The translations under genes were made by a program, and so were the position numbers. The notes under the pieces are model-generated. The model was given only the letters and a program-made list of their open reading frames with translations, was not told where the DNA came from and ran no database searches. From contig JAPNXP010000004.1 of the NCBI GenBank assembly GCA_028753945.1, forward strand, positions 1,612,001 through 1,676,000: a DNA stretch of 64,000 nt, given 5' to 3'. Positions 49,914 through 59,545 of this stretch are shown here, one piece after another (positions within the stretch are counted from its first letter, which is position 1; each line of letters begins with the position of its first letter). The DNA comes from Hexactinellida sp. DTS-2022. Its lineage: Eukaryota; Porifera; Hexactinellida.

Positions 49914-50677
49914 TCAATTTAAATTGGATTCATTTATTTACAACAAAAAATGAATTTTGGTGGGTCATTCCTCAATACAATTGATAAATAAAATTAATAG
50001 TAGAAAGAAAAACATCTGTTTAATTCAAGAATGTTTTGAATTTATATCTTTTGTGAAGAAAGATCCGTTGAAGTGAAAATCGATTATTCATCGTAGAGTA
50101 TGTAGCTTGTAAATGCAGATGATATAAAGACAAATATTCATTTGGTAGAGACATACTGAATTAGTAATAAATAGTTAAATTAAAGATTTGGAGGAAGATT
50201 TTATAGACTATAATATTATTCTTTGTAACATTGATAGTTCAAAGAAAACCCACTTTTAGAAAACATTTTGTAAAACAACCTACTCCTCTTAATAGAGCCA
50301 CCAGTTAATACAATTCACTGCTAATCAGTTCAAATTTCGAAGGATTTATAGGACGGAATTACATTTTGGCTAAAAATATTTTCGGTTAATAGATTTCTCC
50401 GCTTAATCGGGTCAAAGCAATCTGGTCCCGAGGTGACTCTATTAAGCGGAGTTTACAGTATTACCAAAATTTGCAAAAGCTTCGATAAAGAATAATACTG
50501 GCAAAAATGAAGATTAAAATCCTGGGTATTTCCTGAGGTTAACACAACATCTGTGGCCTGGAGATTTAACAAATTGTTGATTGTTATCAGCATTTCAATT
50601 TGCTTTTTACCCGAGAGCGAATAAAATATTTGAAGAACAGAAACGAGTTAGAGATAGTTGGAAGAACAATGGGTTGA
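49914..50677. other. Gene-free stretch before the OTU transposon
   Basis: 50385-50460 has the end of a pogo-like MITE on the minus strand (ATACTGTAAACTCCGCTTAA); no partner was firmly found. Confidence 0.4.
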
Positions 50678-51478
50678 TTATGACTGTGAAGTTGGCTTAG
50701 TATTCGACCAGGCTCACTTCAGTCAGATATTTGACTCACTTCTAGTTATTAGATTTGAATAAATTTAGTGTCGTTCGAAAGAGGAGATACGGAGGTTTTC
50801 CGTGATATTATTTATTTAAAATTTTTTTAACTTTCAGTTGGTTATTTTTATCATACAAAGCCGCACTGGTATCTCATCAAAAATCACATTCTCAAAATTT
50901 GTTTACAATTCTGAAAATTTCTTATCATACTTTGGAGAGTTGGAGGTTTATGTGATTTAATTTTTATTTAAAATTTCCCAAAAATTTTGGAGTTATAAAC
51001 ATTCAAACTTGAAATTGGGAAAAAGAGTGGAAGTAGAATTTTGAAAAGTCCATTGAGTAGGGTTAGTTCAAAGTGTCAATTCCTATCCAATATCAACCTG
51101 AATCGAATTTATTTTGGTACATTCGTTAGAGGAGACACGGAGGTTTACCTCAATGCCATTAGATTCGAATATTCCCTTTATAACAGATAAATAAGTCCTT
51201 TAAAAATGGCGTAAATCTCTGTTTTTATTGTTATATCTTTTCAAATATTGAGCTCAATTTTCCGAGATAAAATTGAACCAGAATCGATTCAAACTTTACA
51301 GGTACTTTCTCTGATATATTATTATTCTATCCCCAGAAAAAAAAACAGGGGTCGCTAGTCATTTCTTTCAGAATCTTTTTAATTTCTTGGACAGCAATAG
51401 ATAATTAATTAAATTTTCAATATTCATACTTTAGTTTATAATAGCTCAGTATACAAGTATGCACCTATAGCCCTAAAT

Positions 51479-51552
51479 GGTATTTCCCACAAGTCTAATT
51501 TGCGTTAGACTTGTGGGAAATACCAATTTGCGTTAGACTTGTGGGAAATAGG
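51479..51552. promoter_or_regulatory. Perfect 20-bp-arm hairpin plus third copy upstream of ORF
   Basis: GGTATTTCCCACAAGTCTAA, 6-base loop TTTGCG, and the exact inverse at 51505-51524, followed by a direct repeat of the right arm and loop (51525-51552). It lies ~100 bp inside the left TIR's inner end and ahead of the first coding segment. Its role, if any, is unknown. Confidence 0.6.
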
Positions 51553-51717
51553 CTATTCTTAGAATATTTAAGCCTCGACTCGGCTAGGAGGAAATTTCGA
51601 ACTTACATTCATTGCTTTTTTCATCACTCTTTCAAACTTTTCCTTGATTCTTCTACAATTATTTCTAGAACTTTAGTTCTTTTCTACAAATATTTATTGA
51701 TTCATTATTCTCTCTCA

Positions 51718-52317
51718 ATGATTTCTATTGAATTGTGGCGTGCTCACATCGGATTGCATTGCAGCCGCAGATGCAATAATACCCATCATCGTCATCAATC
51801 AACAGACCAAACTGATTCATCTGTTTCGATCATCTCGGCTTTTATTGCATGTATAGTAGCCATTCTACTCGTCATTGGCGGAATCGAGATCAATCCTGGG
51901 CCTATCACCCCAACTCAAGATACTCATCACGAACGAGGTAATTTTGACTTATATATGTTATGGGTAAGAATAAACTTTATTGTTATTTTTTTAGAACTAC
52001 CAGCTGAGATCAAATCTTTTGTCGACGCACTCCTCTCCACAACACTATCATTCGAACAACTGATCCAGTCCCTGTCTGCAAGCTACAGTTCGCCCAGTTC
52101 CATTTGGGGTTCCATTTGTAAGAAAGTCTACTTGCGTAACAAGCCTGATAAGAGACATAGCTTGTACTTGAAGTGGAGAAATAATTCTTATGACGTAAGA
52201 ACCCTGGTGAGGGATGCTTTGAGCGAAGTTAAGCCTTCAGTAAGTCCCCCTAGTTCGGAGGAGCAATTTCACGTGAGTTATAGTCTTAGTAACTTAACTA
52301 TTCAGAGCAGTTGGTAA
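51718..52317 (+). CDS. N-terminal segment of OTU transposon protein with 2A-like motif
   Basis: Open from 51511, but the Met at 51718 (MISIELWRAHIG) is the more natural start. A hydrophobic helix (IISAFIACIVAILLVI) runs directly into GGIEINPGP at 51877-51903. That matches the 2A ribosome-skipping signature [D/G]-[V/I]-E-x-N-P-G-P, with Gly in place of the usual first Asp. Skipping would release a ~61-residue N-terminal peptide before the final Pro. A 57-base GT..AG intron fits at 51938-51994, is a multiple of three, and leaves the frame open. Downstream, ELPAEIKSFVDALL and a basic SICKKVYLRNKPDKRHSLYL follow. A second small intron may start at 52273 (GTGAGT). The downstream segment is not recognised by family. 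Confidence 0.6.
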   Translation: MISIELWRAHIGLHCSRRCNNTHHRHQSTDQTDSSVSIISAFIACIVAILLVIGGIEINPGPITPTQDTHHERGNFDLYMLWVRINFIVIFLELPAEIKSFVDALLSTTLSFEQLIQSLSASYSSPSSIWGSICKKVYLRNKPDKRHSLYLKWRNNSYDVRTLVRDALSEVKPSVSPPSSEEQFHVSYSLSNLTIQSSW

Positions 52318-53610
52318 CTTCCACAATTCTTAAGGAAGTAAGTTTAAGTGTAGCTGCTTGTTTCGATTTATTTTCGTCATTCGATAACTTAAATTTAAGA
52401 AAACTTGAATTGAATGTAGTTGACGATAAAATTCTTATTGTGTGGGCATCTTCTGCATCCGACCAAGCTGTGTATGACCAGTTAAAGTAGATTCTCAGAA
52501 TACAAAACTTAGTTCTCTGAATAGTGAAGGTCACGACGCGTATTACATGTTCAATACAACTGAATGCCAGTTATGGGTAGACGGTGCTATGTTTTATGGA
52601 TTAATTAATCCACAAAATGTTTCTGGTTATTTACAATTCGAGGAAATGTGCTATTTTGAGGAGTGTTTTGATTTTATTACCACGATTGTAAATACTTATT
52701 GTAAAAGCTTTGTGGAATGTACTCCTTTATTGTTTTTGTGGTTGTCTGAAGTACAGCTTGAATGTAGTTTCTTGTATCAAATGTTTGGTAAGAAATATGT
52801 GTTTTTAAGTGGAGATGACTTGAGTCTTTTTATAACTTGGGTAAAGGTGTTGAGAGATGAGTACAATGCTAATGGTGTTAAGTGCTTAGAAAGTAAGTGT
52901 ACTGATTTTAGTGTTAGAGTTGAAAGTGAATTTAGTGAACCACTTCCTCGTTCTCACGATGTGCCTGATATTAAAACTGACAACTTTGAACACAAATGGT
53001 GATAGAAAGTTCTGAGATTTAAGTTCTACGTGATACGAGTAGTAGTGACTGTGGTGAGTTTTATCTCGAACTGAGTGAGTGGGATAATATTTGTATTACC
53101 AATTCTACTGGTAAACTTCATTGGTTAGTTATTGGACAAATGTTTTCGCTGAAAAATTTAAAGATTTAGCCCCAATGTGTGTTTTGAAGTTTGTAAATTA
53201 TTGGTTGAAGAAACCTGATAGTCGCAAGGGTAATAGTCCCTTCTTCAGAGCTAGAGCGTATTGTAAGTTTGAAAATTGTCGATCTTATATCTTTTATATT
53301 AATGATGCACTAAATTTGGTAGATAATGACATACTTGTCAAGATTTACTCAGAAGGATATTTGTCACTTCAACACACAGAGATCAGAGTGCATTTAGTCG
53401 CCATCTACCTTGCAGTGAGCGTAGTAAAATGGGAGAATTATAGTGAATAATTCGGTTAGCGAAATTTATAATAAACAGTTTAATAATTCAAGTAATCAGG
53501 GTCTCTGTTATGGTAATTTTACTTCTCTTAAATTACAAGATTGTTTGCGGAAAGTTAAAGCTGAATTGAAATCTAAGGAGCGGTTTTCTAAGTAATATAT
53601 GGAAGATGTA
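52303..53610 (+). pseudogene. Middle region of the OTU transposon protein, unrecognised
   Basis: Successive open segments in changing frames: 52303-52489 (QLVTSTILKEVSLSVAACFD), 52547-53002 (CQLWVDGAMFYGLI; Cys/Phe-rich), 53121-53450 (FVNYWLKKPDSRKG, SPFFRARAYCKFENC), then ~53445-53600 (CYGNFTSLKLQDCLRKVKAE). The piece with R-A-x-C-K-F-x-x-C may be part of a zinc-binding DNA-recognition domain as in MULEs, but I cannot assign it. Stops or frameshifts lie at ~52490, 53003 and 53450, and the gene is then cut by the MITE at 53618. Confidence 0.5.
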
Positions 53611-53617
53611 GCAGCAA

Positions 53618-54191
53618 CTAGTGCTGCGAACTGGAATTAAATTTGATTCAATTCAGTTACAGTTACAGTTACAGTTTTAGTTTCATTTCAGTTACAGTTT
53701 TAATTCAGTTACAGTTACAGTTTTCATTTCAGTTACAGTCTTAATTCAGTTACAGTTTTAATTCAGTTACAGTTTTCATTTCAGTTACAATTTTCATTTC
53801 GGTTACAATTTTACCACAGTCAGTACAATTTCGTACTTAGTTTTGTATTCACAACTTTCACCTATTTTATGACTAAACCTTAGTTAATTATTACTAACCC
53901 TTATTATACTCTATGCAATAAATAATCGTAATCGCTTAATCTAGGTTCCAAGGTCTGCAGACAACATAATCTAGTTTCATTTTTTGCCGCCTGACTAGTG
54001 CTGCAAACCGGAATTGAATTTGAAGAAATTCAATTTCAGTTGGAGAAAAATACATTTCAGTTACAGTTACAGTTACAGTTTTATAATCGAGTACATTTCA
54101 GTTACAGTTACAGTTACAGTTTAGAAAATCGCTAAAACTATTTCAGTTTTAATTCAGTTACAGTTTTAATTCAGTTTCAGTTCGCAGCACT
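53618..54191. mobile_element. hAT-type MITE(s) filled with CAGTTACAGTT repeats
   Basis: CTAGTGCTGCGAACTGGAAT ... TTCAGTTCGCAGCACT, exact 8-bp duplication AGCAGCAA (53610-53617, 54192-54199). A second start-like sequence at 53994 (CTAGTGCTGCAAACCGGAAT) suggests a nested or duplicated copy. It interrupts the transposase reading frame. Confidence 0.88.
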
Positions 54192-55786
54192 AGCAGCAAC
54201 CCAGCAGTATTTCCGTTATCTACTTCCTGAATCCCCCCTACCAGGCTATGTTCAGTATTTCGTACAGGATCCTTGCATTTTCCATATGTATTCTTATAAG
54301 CAGCTGGAAATTCTAAATCTAATGAAAAGTAAAGATATTTTCTTGAATTTAGATGCGACTGGTTCTCTTATTTCTAAACCCCCTTCCTGTTCTAAGAAGA
54401 TATATTATTATGCCCTTACAATACAATACCCGGAGTTTTCCACCAGTCCCATCCCATTAGCTGAAATGATTAGTAGCGATCATAGCACAGCTGAGATCTC
54501 ACACTTCCTGAATAAATGGTGTTTGAGTGTAAAATTATTTAACACAATGGAGTTAAAAATTAAGAAAGTTGAGATAGATTTTAGTTGGGCTATGATACAC
54601 AGTACATGTTTAGCGTTTAACAAATTTACTCTTTTTCATTATCTCCAATATTGTTGGGAATTTATAGCTAATAGTGAGAACTTAGGTGATAATATTATAA
54701 TAGTCCTCCATCTCCTCGGCTCATAGCATGCACAGAATTAGTTATAATTTAAATAAGAAATTCAAATTAGAAAAGGCTTTAAAAAGATTAATATTGCATG
54801 TATTTGGTCGTATGGTTAATTGTAAACAAATGGATTAAATTAATCAACTTTTCGGGTTAATTTGTTATATTTTGTGTAGTAAGAAGCAAACTAGTGTTTA
54901 TTGCACTAAATTAAACAAACTAGAAGAATGTATTAGGGCGGAGATTAATGTTAGTAATGATGCCCCCAATGAATTCGAGGATGAGACTGAAGTTAATAGT
55001 AATGCTGTAACTTACAGAGATAAATCCCCTTTTGGCAGACATTTTGAAATGATTTATCGTAATACCTTAGTCTCAATAAGCGAATTCGACAATAATTCGC
55101 AACTTGATCCTGGTGTATCTTATAACCCCCAGGTAGTTGAATTTCTTCTCACGTATTATATGCCATTGTTACTGTTGTGGAGTGAGATAATTTTATGTAC
55201 AGTTAATTCGTGAGAGAATGCAACAGACAGTAATGCGATTGTTGAGAATTGGTTCAGAATTGTTAAACACAGCATATTTAATTCAGAGACCGGGATACGA
55301 GCTGCTGATTTCATTAGAACAGTTTATAATAACATAGACGATAGGATCGCGGCGTTTAAATTTGCTTTTACCCCACTGGCTCATAAAGTGTTTAAAGTTA
55401 AGAAGAGATTACGCGTGGAGAATGAGGAGGAGTGCAAAGAGGAGTGGTCTAGAAGTAAGAAGAGTAAATTTAGTTATACTAAACCAACTGTTGATAAAGT
55501 TAGTACGATATTTAAAAATTTCAAGTCTAAAAGTTTAAGTACTAAAAATAAAAGTTTTAATGTAGAAAGTATAAGTAAACGTTCAACAGACAGAGAGGAA
55601 GCTACTATTTGTGAAGAAAATCCAGTAGATGTTGCTACAGTTATTAATGATATAGTGCGTGCAAGTGTAGTTGAAATAATTGGTGATTTAGATTTAGTAG
55701 AAATGGCTACCATGGAATATAAGTTACCGGCATTCCAACCACTTACATATCGGGGACAGAAGAAGTTGTGTGAAGATTTACAATAA
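54192..55786 (+). pseudogene. MULE-like DDE transposase of the OTU transposon
   Basis: Continues the gene after the MITE: AATQQYFRYLLPESP-type sequence into 54286-54726. Candidate catalytic residues: Asp at 54352 (FLNLDATGSLISKPP), Asp at 54577 (VEIDFSWAMIHS) and Glu at 55244 (SNAIVENWF-x-x-VK). The order D-D-E and the NA-x-VENWF block resemble Mutator-like transposases. PLAEMISSDHSTAEISHFL lies between. One frame change occurs between 54726 and 54872. From 54872 the frame is open to 55987 apart from two stops, TGA at 55211-55213 and TAA at 55784-55786. A basic Ser/Lys-rich linker (55388-55600) leads to the OTU domain in the same frame. Family: probably the OTU-carrying MULE lineage of animals (Phantom-like), from memory. 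Confidence 0.7.
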
Positions 55787-56333
55787 AAGTTGTCGGATTC
55801 TACAAATTCCATAAGAGATAATATCCCAGGCAATTCTAATTTAAAAGAATATGTTCCTTCGAAGTGTTTGCGAATTCCTGGAGATGGAAATTGTTTTTTT
55901 GCATCATTGTCGTACTGGTTGACAGGAAATATTGATGGTTTTAATTTAGTACGGTTGAAAGTTGTAGAGAATATATATGGTTGGTAAGCTGAAGGATGCA
56001 TGCAATAAGTTTATTGCCAATAAATTTCCTAGGAGTGTAATCAACTATCGTAATGTGGCAGACTATGTAGTAAAATCTAATATGAAGAGGAATTCTACGT
56101 GGGGTACTGATGTGGAGTTATTTGCAACAGCCTTATTATTGCATACGGATATTTGGGTATTTAGTTCAGACATGGGTAACAAGTGGATGGTATTCTCAGG
56201 TAGAGGGGTTAAACTAATTGATACTTTGGAGTCTCCTCCAGGAAACAATGCAGGCTCTATCTATATTAATCATAATGGAGTACATTATGAACCAATATTA
56301 CGGGTGGATTTAATATCTACGGGCAATCAATGA
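55787..56333 (+). pseudogene. OTU-family cysteine protease domain
   Basis: OTU (ovarian-tumour) deubiquitinase-like fold. CLRIPGDGNCFFASLSYWLTG carries the catalytic Asp (55883-55885) and Cys (55892-55894) in the canonical D-G-N-C. The C-terminal IYINHNGVHYEPI carries the His (56283-56285). In between, WGTDVELFATALLL and IWVFS match the OTU core. One frameshift at ~55975-55990 separates the Cys half from the His half. The upstream stop at 55784-55786 is the only barrier to fusion with the transposase. Normal size for an OTU domain (~160 aa). The role of OTU domains in transposons is unknown; deubiquitination of the transposase or silencing factors is speculation. Confidence 0.88.
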
Positions 56334-56617
56334 ATTCACTGATTACCTCGTAGTCGTAGATATCAATTAATTAAAACTATATAATTAGAAAACCAAAGGA
56401 TTCCCTTTATTAGTCAATGATTAATTGTCTTATGCGGAATGTTATCCAGGTTTAGAAGTGATCCTATTAATTACATCGATAGAAGCAAAGAAGAATAAAA
56501 TTTATTTCGGGCTCTTATAGCGCAAAAAATTGCGATTCTCATGTTCTACAGGCAATAAACAAATATTTCTACAGCCACCTTCTCTACTTAAATAGTAAAG
56601 ATTTTCAACAACATTTA

Positions 56618-56935
56618 TGTTGGACAGTGTGACATAGCGGTATGTGATCCGCGAGAGCTTATGGTCAGTCACTCCCAGGAGGACTAGGCGCTGCTGGAGC
56701 TGTGTAGACAGCGAGAGAGAGCAGGCCTAGATGTGTCGCGACGATGGAAGATGTACCATCTGGACGAGGTCGGACACTGCGGTCTTAGTGAGCGTACCAA
56801 GGGTAGAGGACTGGGCCGTCCTCCTGATGAGGCCTATGGAGGGCCGAAACACTAGAGTGGTGGCGACACCACTTGGACCACTTGAGCTGTCAATGGTGGC
56901 AGCTTGATACAGAAAGGTCGCAAAGCTTCTCATGA
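56618..56935 (+). mobile_element. SINE-like GC-rich insert with hammerhead-like core
   Basis: GC-rich ~315-bp island in AT-rich surroundings. Its start, GTGACATAGCGGTATGTGATCCGC, contains a tRNA-like A-box/D-arm (TAGCGG...ATCCGC). Flanks ACAACATTTAT (left) and ACAACAGTTAT (right) match at 10 of 11 bases. At 56831-56856 CTGATGAGGCC-TATGGAG-GGCCGAAAC has the hammerhead CUGAUGA / stem II / GAAA arrangement. A hairpin AGTGGTG-GCGA-CACCACT follows. No clear B box. Confidence 0.5.
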
Positions 56936-57082
56936 CAACAGTTATAAAGTGGTAAGTTATATTCTTAAATGTACATGTGGATGATTTATAAATATTTGTG
57001 CAAAGATTTATCCTATAGTTCTTTAAAAGAAGGCAAATACAAAAAGGAAATGATCTATCCCAAAGCAGTCGGAATTGATATA

Positions 57083-57274
57083 CAATAGTCTCCCAAAACG
57101 GACACTCCGAGAAGCGGACAACACATTTAAAACGGACAAACCCCCGTGAAACGGAATGAATTTACCATGCATGTAATTAAACTTCAGCCGTCTCCGAGAA
57201 GTGGACATCTCCAGAGTCCAAAGAACTAACTAAGGCCATGTCCGCAACGTGTCCGTTATTCGGAGACTCCACGG
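57083..57274. mobile_element. pogo/Tc1-type MITE (192 bp)
   Basis: CAATAGTCTCCCAAAACGG ... TTCGGAGACTCCACGG with TA at 57081-57082 and 57275-57276. Confidence 0.72.
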
Positions 57275-57611
57275 TAAACACATATTATTTTAATGAGATA
57301 CCTGGATGCCATTCTCTCTTCTTGGAATTGGATAAGTAAGATCAATCCAAAAAGCAGTGGGAATTGATACAAGCACACATTGTGGATGCCATTCTTCTTG
57401 CATTTGTTAATAATTATATAATTATCACTACCAATATTACAACCAGAATAATTCATTGTTTACTGATTCTGTTTGCATTCCAATCATCTAATGTCTTAGT
57501 TATATAGTTGCAATTACAATTTTCTATTATTAGTTGAAACTCAATACTACAATGGGAACTAAGAGAAGCGAATGAATTGTGATACATTACGTAGATAGTA
57601 TATATGATATA

Positions 57612-58111
57612 CAGTGGAACCTCTATAAGTGGGGGAGCTGGGACGGGGAAAATTTCAATTGCCCCCCATTCCCCGGTTATAAAATTCAATTGGAAAAACA
57701 TTATATATGCTATATTATACAAAATATTCATATAACACACACATTAATGCACGTTCTAGTTCTTATTTGTATATTATGACAATTTAGTTAACTGCTGATC
57801 TACACTAGGTGATTTCTTCTAAAAACATCAGAGTAGATCAATCGAAAATATTTTTTCTGTAGAACTTTTGAGTCGATTTATTGGAAATATTGTATTATTG
57901 TATAAGAATCATGTTAGGATTTGTCCATTCCCCCCATTTATGGAGGTTGTTTTGTATGGAGATAAAAACTCCTTGAAATTTATGGTCCCCCATTCCCCAC
58001 TTCCCCGCTTATAGAGGTTCATTTGTATGGATATATACGAATATGGTTAAAAAATTCCCCACTTATGGAGGTTCCCCATTTATAGAGACCCCACTTATAG
58101 AGGTTGCACTG
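57612..58111. mobile_element. pogo/Tc1-type MITE (500 bp)
   Basis: CAGTGGAACCTCTATAAGTG ... ACTTATAGAGGTTGCACTG with TA at 57610-57611 and 58112-58113; multiple CCCCACTTATGGAGGTT subterminal repeats. Confidence 0.9.
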
Positions 58112-58920
58112 TATATGATATATATGATATCACTAATATTGATGTTATGATGAAATAAAGATAGGCTTAGCTAAAATAATGAGATCGAAATTGAAACATT
58201 TTGGAGAAATTTAAAAAATTCTGAAAGAAATGACTAGCGACCCCTGTTTTTTTTCTGGGGATAGAATAATAATATATCAGAGAAAGTACCTGCAAAGTTT
58301 GAATCGATTCTGGTTCAATTTTATCTCGGAAAATTGAGCTCAATATTTGAAAAGATATAACAATAAAAACAGAGATTTACGCCATTTTTAAAGGACTTAT
58401 TTATCTGTTATAAAGGGAATATTCGAGAATCTAATGGCATTGAGGTAAACCTCCGTGTCTCCTCTAACGAATGTACCAAAATAAATTCGATTCAGGTTGA
58501 TATTGGATAGGAATTGACACTTTGAACTAACCCTACTCAATGGACTTTTCAAAATTCTACTTCCACTCTTTTTCCCAACTTCAAGTTTGAATGTTTATAA
58601 CTCCAAAATTTTTGGGAAATTTTAAATAAAAATTAAATCACATAAACCTCCAACTCTCCAAAGTATGATAAGAAATTTTCAGAATTGTAAACAAATTTTG
58701 AGAATGTGATTTTTGATGAGATACCAGTGCGGCTTTGTATGATAAAAATAACCAACTGAAAGTTAAAAGTTTTTTAAATAAATAATATCACGGAAAACCT
58801 CCGTATCTCCTCTTTCGAACGACACTAAATTTATTCAAATCTAATAACTAGAAGTGAGTCAAATATCTGACTGAAGTGAGCCTGGTCGAATACTAAGCCA
58901 ACTTCACAGTCATGGGTTGA

Positions 58921-59545
58921 AGAGGGTATAGGAAAAGAAAACTGTGCCACTTACAACCCAAATCATATGATTTTGTAAAAAACTTCTCGGAAAAGAGGGA
59001 ATTATTAGACTTTCATACTAGGATGGCATTTTACATGCTTAAATTCACTAAACAAACCACTTCAAGGATGATTTGCCACTAATGAAATCATGGATAAAAT
59101 CAGAACTGATATCATGAAGTTGGACATGGCTATGGCTTGGAACTGGGACTTACAATCTGGGATCTCGATCCATTTCACGTCCGGTATTAAATCCTGGAAT
59201 TTGTTTTTTTAATCCGATCCCGATTCCAATTCAGGGATTCCAAACTAGGTGTCAATGACTTTAATTGCAGTCAAATAATGGAACAGGTTTGCTTCTCTAG
59301 CTAGACAAACAATCATCCACTTATAGGATGCTTATACTTTCTTATCAGCCCTTATTTGGATTCGGGGTTCAATGATAATCTTTGTGGTCATTGTTGCTAA
59401 AATTTAACAAACGATGACTCGAAGATTCCATTTAAATAAATCATGACTAATATTATAGAATTCTATAACTAAGAAATTATCTCGCTAAATTCTATATTTA
59501 TGGCTGAAAGTAATAAATTTCAAAATTTCGCTGGTGCAGAAATAT
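58921..59545. other. No recognisable gene or element
   Basis: AT-rich; no open frame of note. Confidence 0.4.

Follow-up and report, generated by a model that had tools for sequence, protein, structure and literature searches.

A decayed young DNA transposon of a hexactinellid sponge with a predicted StopGo leader ahead of a transposase–OTU protein

The stretch of DNA analysed here (the window) comprises 64,000 nucleotides of Hexactinellida sp. DTS-2022 (GenBank assembly GCA_028753945.1, contig JAPNXP010000004.1, positions 1,612,001 to 1,676,000 of the forward strand). Judged from sequence comparisons, the element that it carries at 50680-58913 is a decayed copy of a young DNA transposon, and the family to which it belongs was recently active. 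We consider it probable that the element is an IS256/MULE-like (Mutator-like element) transposon of the DDE type, in which a spliced leader ending in a StopGo/2A core (a ribosome-skipping peptide) precedes a transposase–OTU protein that is diverted to membranes when skipping fails. Similar leaders precede other transposon types in the same genome, and a leader module common to several DNA-transposon superfamilies would detach the transposase from a membrane-type leader as translation proceeds. The features of the element are as follows.

50671-50679, no strand: left target-site duplication (TSD), gggttgatt, from the sequence
50680-51387, plus strand: left terminal inverted repeat (TIR), from self-comparison and alignment; its counterpart in copy L011 has 711 bp
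51718-51937, plus strand: leader exon of 220 nt, beginning MISIELWRAHIG, with a hydrophobic segment and the 2A core, from the sequence and genome leader queries
51880-51903, plus strand: StopGo/2A core GIEINPGP, from the sequence and motif pattern
51938-51994, plus strand: predicted intron, gt...ag, 57 bp (58 bp in L011), whose removal keeps the frame
51995-56333, plus strand: remnant of exon 2 (N-terminal domain, zinc-finger-like domain, DDE core, linker and OTU), its frame broken by frameshifts, stops and one insertion
53262-53279, plus strand: CKFENC of the zinc-finger-like domain (named by resemblance), with CKF..C invariant in alignment A1
54349-54366, plus strand: first D block, LDATGS, from sequence and alignment
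54571-54588, plus strand: second D block, EIDFSW, from sequence and alignment
55235-55255, plus strand: E block, (N)AIVENWF, from sequence and alignment
55880-55900, plus strand: OTU nucleophile block, GDGNC, from the Pfam OTU match and sequence
56274-56294, plus strand: OTU histidine block, NGVHYEP, from the Pfam OTU match and sequence
58205-58913, minus strand: right TIR, from self-comparison and alignment
58914-58922, no strand: right TSD, gggttgaag

The genome searched comprises 112.4 Mb in 18 contigs. A query with the TIR gave 161 candidate places, and all of the best 40 that were scored matched, at 86-100% identity, which indicates that the element represents a repeat family and not a chance arrangement. 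Nine copies with paired TIRs were examined, the window copy among them, and arms and genes were found together in other copies, as the initial annotation had expected of a genuine element. The arms of the window copy, which it had described as near-identical and about 700 bp long, are 98.6% identical over 710 alignment columns. The anticipated duplications of 8-11 bp were also recovered: TSDs of 9 bp are exact in six of the nine copies (L010-L015), L009 has 8 bp, the repeat of L018 is displaced by a few bases, and seven of nine bases match between the two flanks of the window copy. The octamer reported at both outer borders does not itself constitute the target duplication; on the right side, the final TIR base supplies the T of TGGGTTGA. 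TIRs of 711 bp together with 9-bp TSDs agree with the long TIRs and 8-11-bp duplications of MULEs. Identity to the 7136-bp copy L011 is at least 99.79% for L012, L014, L015 and the shared parts of L013, about 96% for L009, L010 and the window copy, and 90.6% for L018, and within each TIR pair of L011-L015 there are 0-5 mismatches or a single gap. These values support recent activity of the family, and the window copy is dead, both as described earlier. Separately, a relative of 37-38% identity, found with near-equal scores and open 1255-residue frames at four places (C1:6588609, C1:12266393, C1:12122044 and C18:236682), is perhaps another recently active family.

An intact open stretch of 1260 residues is present in four copies (on C18, C1, C9 and C10) and one of 1251 residues in a fifth (C17); of these, L017 (the copy on C10) has one TIR arm for which the match is partial. 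Upstream of this main frame lies a separate open stretch of 112 residues that includes the ATG of MISIELWRAHIG. The coding region of the window copy begins at the corresponding leader exon, far upstream of 54286, and this exon with its 2A core had been overlooked in the initial annotation. The leader exon appears to be spliced in frame to exon 2: the intron is predicted because its removal keeps the frame in both the window copy and L011 despite its differing length, and splicing is further supported by the lack of a methionine before residue 161 of exon 2, though the N-terminal domain is conserved in relatives. An unspliced reading also stays open in the window copy, in which the intron length is a multiple of three. 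The predicted spliced protein of L011 is 1326 residues long, and the NPG/P point divides it into 61 and 1265 residues. Three frames are involved in the window copy: one holds both D blocks, a second the E block and the OTU cysteine block, and a third the OTU histidine block. Thus the plus-strand D-D-E and OTU blocks noted previously are all present, but the single frame claimed for them exists only in the intact copies, where transposase and OTU do form one polypeptide.

A structural comparison carried out on a homolog places the DDE blocks within a transposase fold, as had been proposed, namely an IS256-like RNase-H core with a helical insertion whose best structural neighbour is ISCth4 of the IS256 family; counting against this assignment, the whole-length TM-scores of the match are low (0.19 for the query, 0.34 for the target), and the structure aligner warns that a middling Z can reflect a common arrangement. 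TSDs of the IS256 family measure 8 bp, and its bacterial transposase of 47 kDa differs from the protein described here, which has in addition an OTU domain, a zinc-finger-like domain and a 2A leader. There is a substantial possibility, though one that we rate somewhat below even, that the transposase is not a MULE proper and is instead Rehavkus-like or part of a separate superfamily sharing the IS256-type fold. In keeping with this, no Pfam transposase model matched at E<=1 among 20 aligned proteins (of which P0006 and P0010-P0012 are without part of the DDE core), the element's protein P0001 giving OTU only. Rehavkus, the outgroup of MULEs in Dupeyron et al. 2019 (PMC6446971), has 9-bp TSDs, TIRs of 26-400 bp and a PHD finger in its transposase. 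The present family is like it in its 9-bp TSD and in PHD matches among 8 of the 20 aligned homologs, but differs in its 711-bp TIRs, OTU domain and 2A leader, and P0001 itself has no Pfam PHD match. Countering a placement outside the MULEs, the IS256 family of the best structural neighbour has been termed similar to MULE transposases, and 9-bp TSDs with long TIRs suit MULEs and Rehavkus equally.

The OTU domain is a predicted deubiquitinase, fused to the transposase in one polypeptide; its Pfam match in P0001 scores 34.5 bits versus a cut-off of 23.3 (E 3.5e-8), and the cysteine and histidine blocks are both present. Purifying selection acts on the coding region. In the pair L011-L010, 2 nonsynonymous and 15 synonymous changes fall in the OTU part (dN/dS 0.033), compared with 19.5 of each in the zinc finger and DDE parts (dN/dS 0.233), and the difference between the OTU part and the remaining open reading frame (ORF) gives a Fisher p of ~0.001; against L027, L035 and L038 the dN/dS of the OTU part is 0.047, 0.036 and 0.096. 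A point on the other side is the higher dS of the OTU part (0.154 versus about 0.05), which implies that the OTU may have its own recombination history. The relatives L043 and L044 (39% and 35% identical) retain the OTU. In the alignment of 20 homologs (A2, E<=1), Ulp1/C48 matched in two (best E 3.6e-8) and UCH and OTU in one each. The protease lies C-terminal to the DDE core in P0004, P0019 and P0023; in place of OTU, the Astyanax transposase P0019 has Ulp1/C48 and PHD, and the homologous transposase P0023 has UCH. That this lineage carries three ubiquitin-type proteases suggests that removal of ubiquitin, or of a protein related to it, is repeatedly required; it supports a general need and favours no particular substrate. 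OTU domains are also greatly expanded in the genome as a whole, as the best 150 of 440 candidates, which were those scored, all exceeded the Pfam cut-off, and a 227-residue open frame recurs at many places among them.

OTU or Ulp1 proteases are also present in some Ginger elements; the Ginger integrase is of the Gypsy type, whereas the core of this element is IS256/P-like. The combination of a MULE with OTU is itself already known, so that the fusion cannot be called unprecedented: MuDR-6_HM of Hydra (group 14) is listed by Dupeyron et al. 2019 as a MULE with, as here, one ORF and an ovarian tumour gene (PMC6446971). Compared by description only, MuDR-6_HM differs from this element in that Table 1 of that paper gives no TIRs and indicates no TSD, and a 2A leader, present here, is not mentioned in the parts of the paper covered.

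The leader ends in IISAFIACIVAILLVIGGIEINPG, with P following across the NPG/P point. Its core GIEINPGP conforms to the motif (D/G/C/N)(V/I)ExNPGP (PMC12846837), the context upstream is L-rich and hydrophobic (ILLVIG), a setting that usually goes with D at the first core position, and the 19-residue Kyte-Doolittle mean reaches 2.98 two residues before NPG. Each of the five copies whose main frame is uninterrupted retains GIEINPGP, and the core of a sister subfamily is GIEMNPGP. In sea urchin NLRs, N-terminal 2A-like sequences serve as signal sequences if skipping fails and are separated if it works (PMC4981915). The leader described here is similarly a hydrophobic N-terminus ending in a 2A core, and it is this likeness in build that suggests a split between nucleus and membrane; the sea urchin genes differ in being immune genes, whereas here the leaders belong to DNA transposons and, in this family, to a separate exon. 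From these features we infer splicing, StopGo activity, membrane diversion and an OTU target, in the following order. The mRNA would join the short leader exon to the long second exon, and the 61-residue hydrophobic leader ending in NPG would be released at the predicted StopGo/2A site, after which the ribosome would continue with a 1265-residue protein starting with proline and comprising the N-terminal, zinc-finger-like and DDE domains and the C-terminal OTU. When skipping failed, the fusion would keep a signal-anchor-like N-terminus and be diverted to membranes, such that only the skipped fraction of the transposase would become nuclear. The OTU may then take ubiquitin off the transposase or off host proteins at the insertion site; its probable role is to shield the transposase or to edit ubiquitin at the target.

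It is important to note several observations that weigh against this model. The first core position is G and not D after an L-rich stretch; in viral data L-rich upstream motifs associate with D, although G at that position is common and functional in other contexts (PMC12846837). No NPGP occurs in any frame of the fetched DNA of L043 and L044, which have intact frames, and hence the lineage can do without the leader. The 2A core is gone from the decayed copy L018, the leaders of L046 and L057 are weakly hydrophobic, and dN/dS of the leader between subfamilies is 0.52 (15.5 nonsynonymous, 8.5 synonymous), a sign of weak selection; within the family it is 0.14-0.37, on 5 to 8 changes. The unusual pairing of G with an L-rich stretch, the value of 0.52 and the relatives without a core would all suit a leader that is translated but StopGo-inactive, its signal-anchor-like N-terminus tethering the whole transposase–OTU and its core a relic of a functional ancestor. 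We regard this as unlikely, given that GIEINPGP is kept in every copy with an uninterrupted main frame, that relatives with D cores share the same layout, and that exact cores follow most leader starts. That last point rests on a leader start pattern with 63 genome matches (none when reversed), 50 of which, those on contigs covered by the cores listed, were checked: an exact same-strand core lies downstream in 38 (37 at 153-195 bp, one at 680 bp), and 12 have none.

A degenerate DNA pattern for the 2A core, which also allows E at position one and M at position two, matched 128 times in the genome, and its reversed control not at all. Many of these cores are repeated variants, and several repeat families therefore use them. 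Among the 100 matches listed, 18 have a same-strand OTU match 1-6 kb downstream and none an opposite-strand one (taking the best 150 of 440 OTU candidates), and half of the 18 carry the core DNA of this family. Ten further sites of the 128 were read: three precede relatives of the same lineage, two are Helitron-type, one has a PF20700 transposase, one an integrase, one (L051) is a relic of this family, and two (L047 and L049) fall in no class. The relatives include L048 (GDVEVNPGP) and L045 (GDIEINPGP), which precede decayed relatives of P0001, OTU included (36% and 35% identical in the longest tblastn block), and L057, which precedes a third (two tblastn blocks, E 3e-5 and 2e-4). At L046 and L050, 85% identical to each other in DNA, the leader is in the same frame as a repeat-rich protein, and Helitron_like_N and PIF1 domains lie downstream, as shown for L050 only (L054). 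In the first frame of this Helitron-type element a variable array of AERLKDPEKRAEHN repeats follows the 2A leader. L058 unites leader and PF20700 transposase (E 1.1e-28) in a single open frame, and at L056 the leader is followed by a gap and then, close to the start, by an integrase (rve, E 1.1e-8) that looks more like Ginger than like a long terminal repeat (LTR) element.

The leaders themselves are alike. An 85-residue leader query gave 100 genome matches and a second leader query 79, with some loci split over two rows. In a pairwise comparison of six leaders (L045 and L056 were left out, and the tiny database flatters the E-values), those of this family, L046, L047 and L058 align over their full length at 36-46% identity, L048 and L058 are 42% identical, and L057 resembles the others mainly near the core. 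The chances are about even, in our view, that the 2A leader is a portable control module, exchanged at the 5' end, which splits each transposase into a free nuclear and a membrane-held form in the MULE-like elements with OTU, Helitrons, PF20700 Mutator-like elements and probably a Ginger-type integrase. Such similar leaders ahead of unrelated proteins, and the N-terminal 2A signal sequences of sea urchin NLR genes (PMC4981915), could alternatively mean that several transposons each separately acquired a host exon or a signal sequence of host origin, which would say nothing about transposon control. This seems still less likely than an inactive leader, as no host gene was recognised among the ten of the 128 sites that were read, eight being transposon-linked and two unclassified. 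Short as the motif is, a chance origin of GIEINPGP is scarcely credible in the face of 128 matches versus none for the reversed pattern and the recurrence of its position, upstream hydrophobic stretch and layout in several families.

The window copy is about 1.1 kb longer than L011, and two insertions, both absent from L011, account for most of the difference:

53619-54190 (about), no strand: inserted repeat bounded by inverted CTAGTGCTGCGAACTG ends, with many CAGTTA units
57611-58118 (about), no strand: second inserted repeat, containing ATACAGTGGAACCTCTATAAG

The first, with its CAGTTA-rich minisatellite, is likely a non-autonomous element, and the second we take to be pogo-like. A pair of 26-bp direct repeats is also present at 51497-51550, between the left TIR and the leader exon.

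StopGo is said to occur largely in viruses and seldom in cellular sequences (PMC12846837), and a 2024 paper locates it, outside viruses, in non-LTR retrotransposons and in NLRs (PMC11512398). In our searches of open-access papers, with subscription papers mostly outside, we found neither StopGo in DNA transposons nor one leader module across superfamilies, and two papers among those listed that contain both '2A-like' and 'transposase' use the terms in other senses. A skip-peptide leader shared by unrelated transposons hints at a common way of controlling them, and if the leader is indeed a portable module, transposition would be self-limited by ribosome skipping. With 128 cores spread over several types of transposon, it would become possible to test what ribosome skipping does naturally outside viruses.

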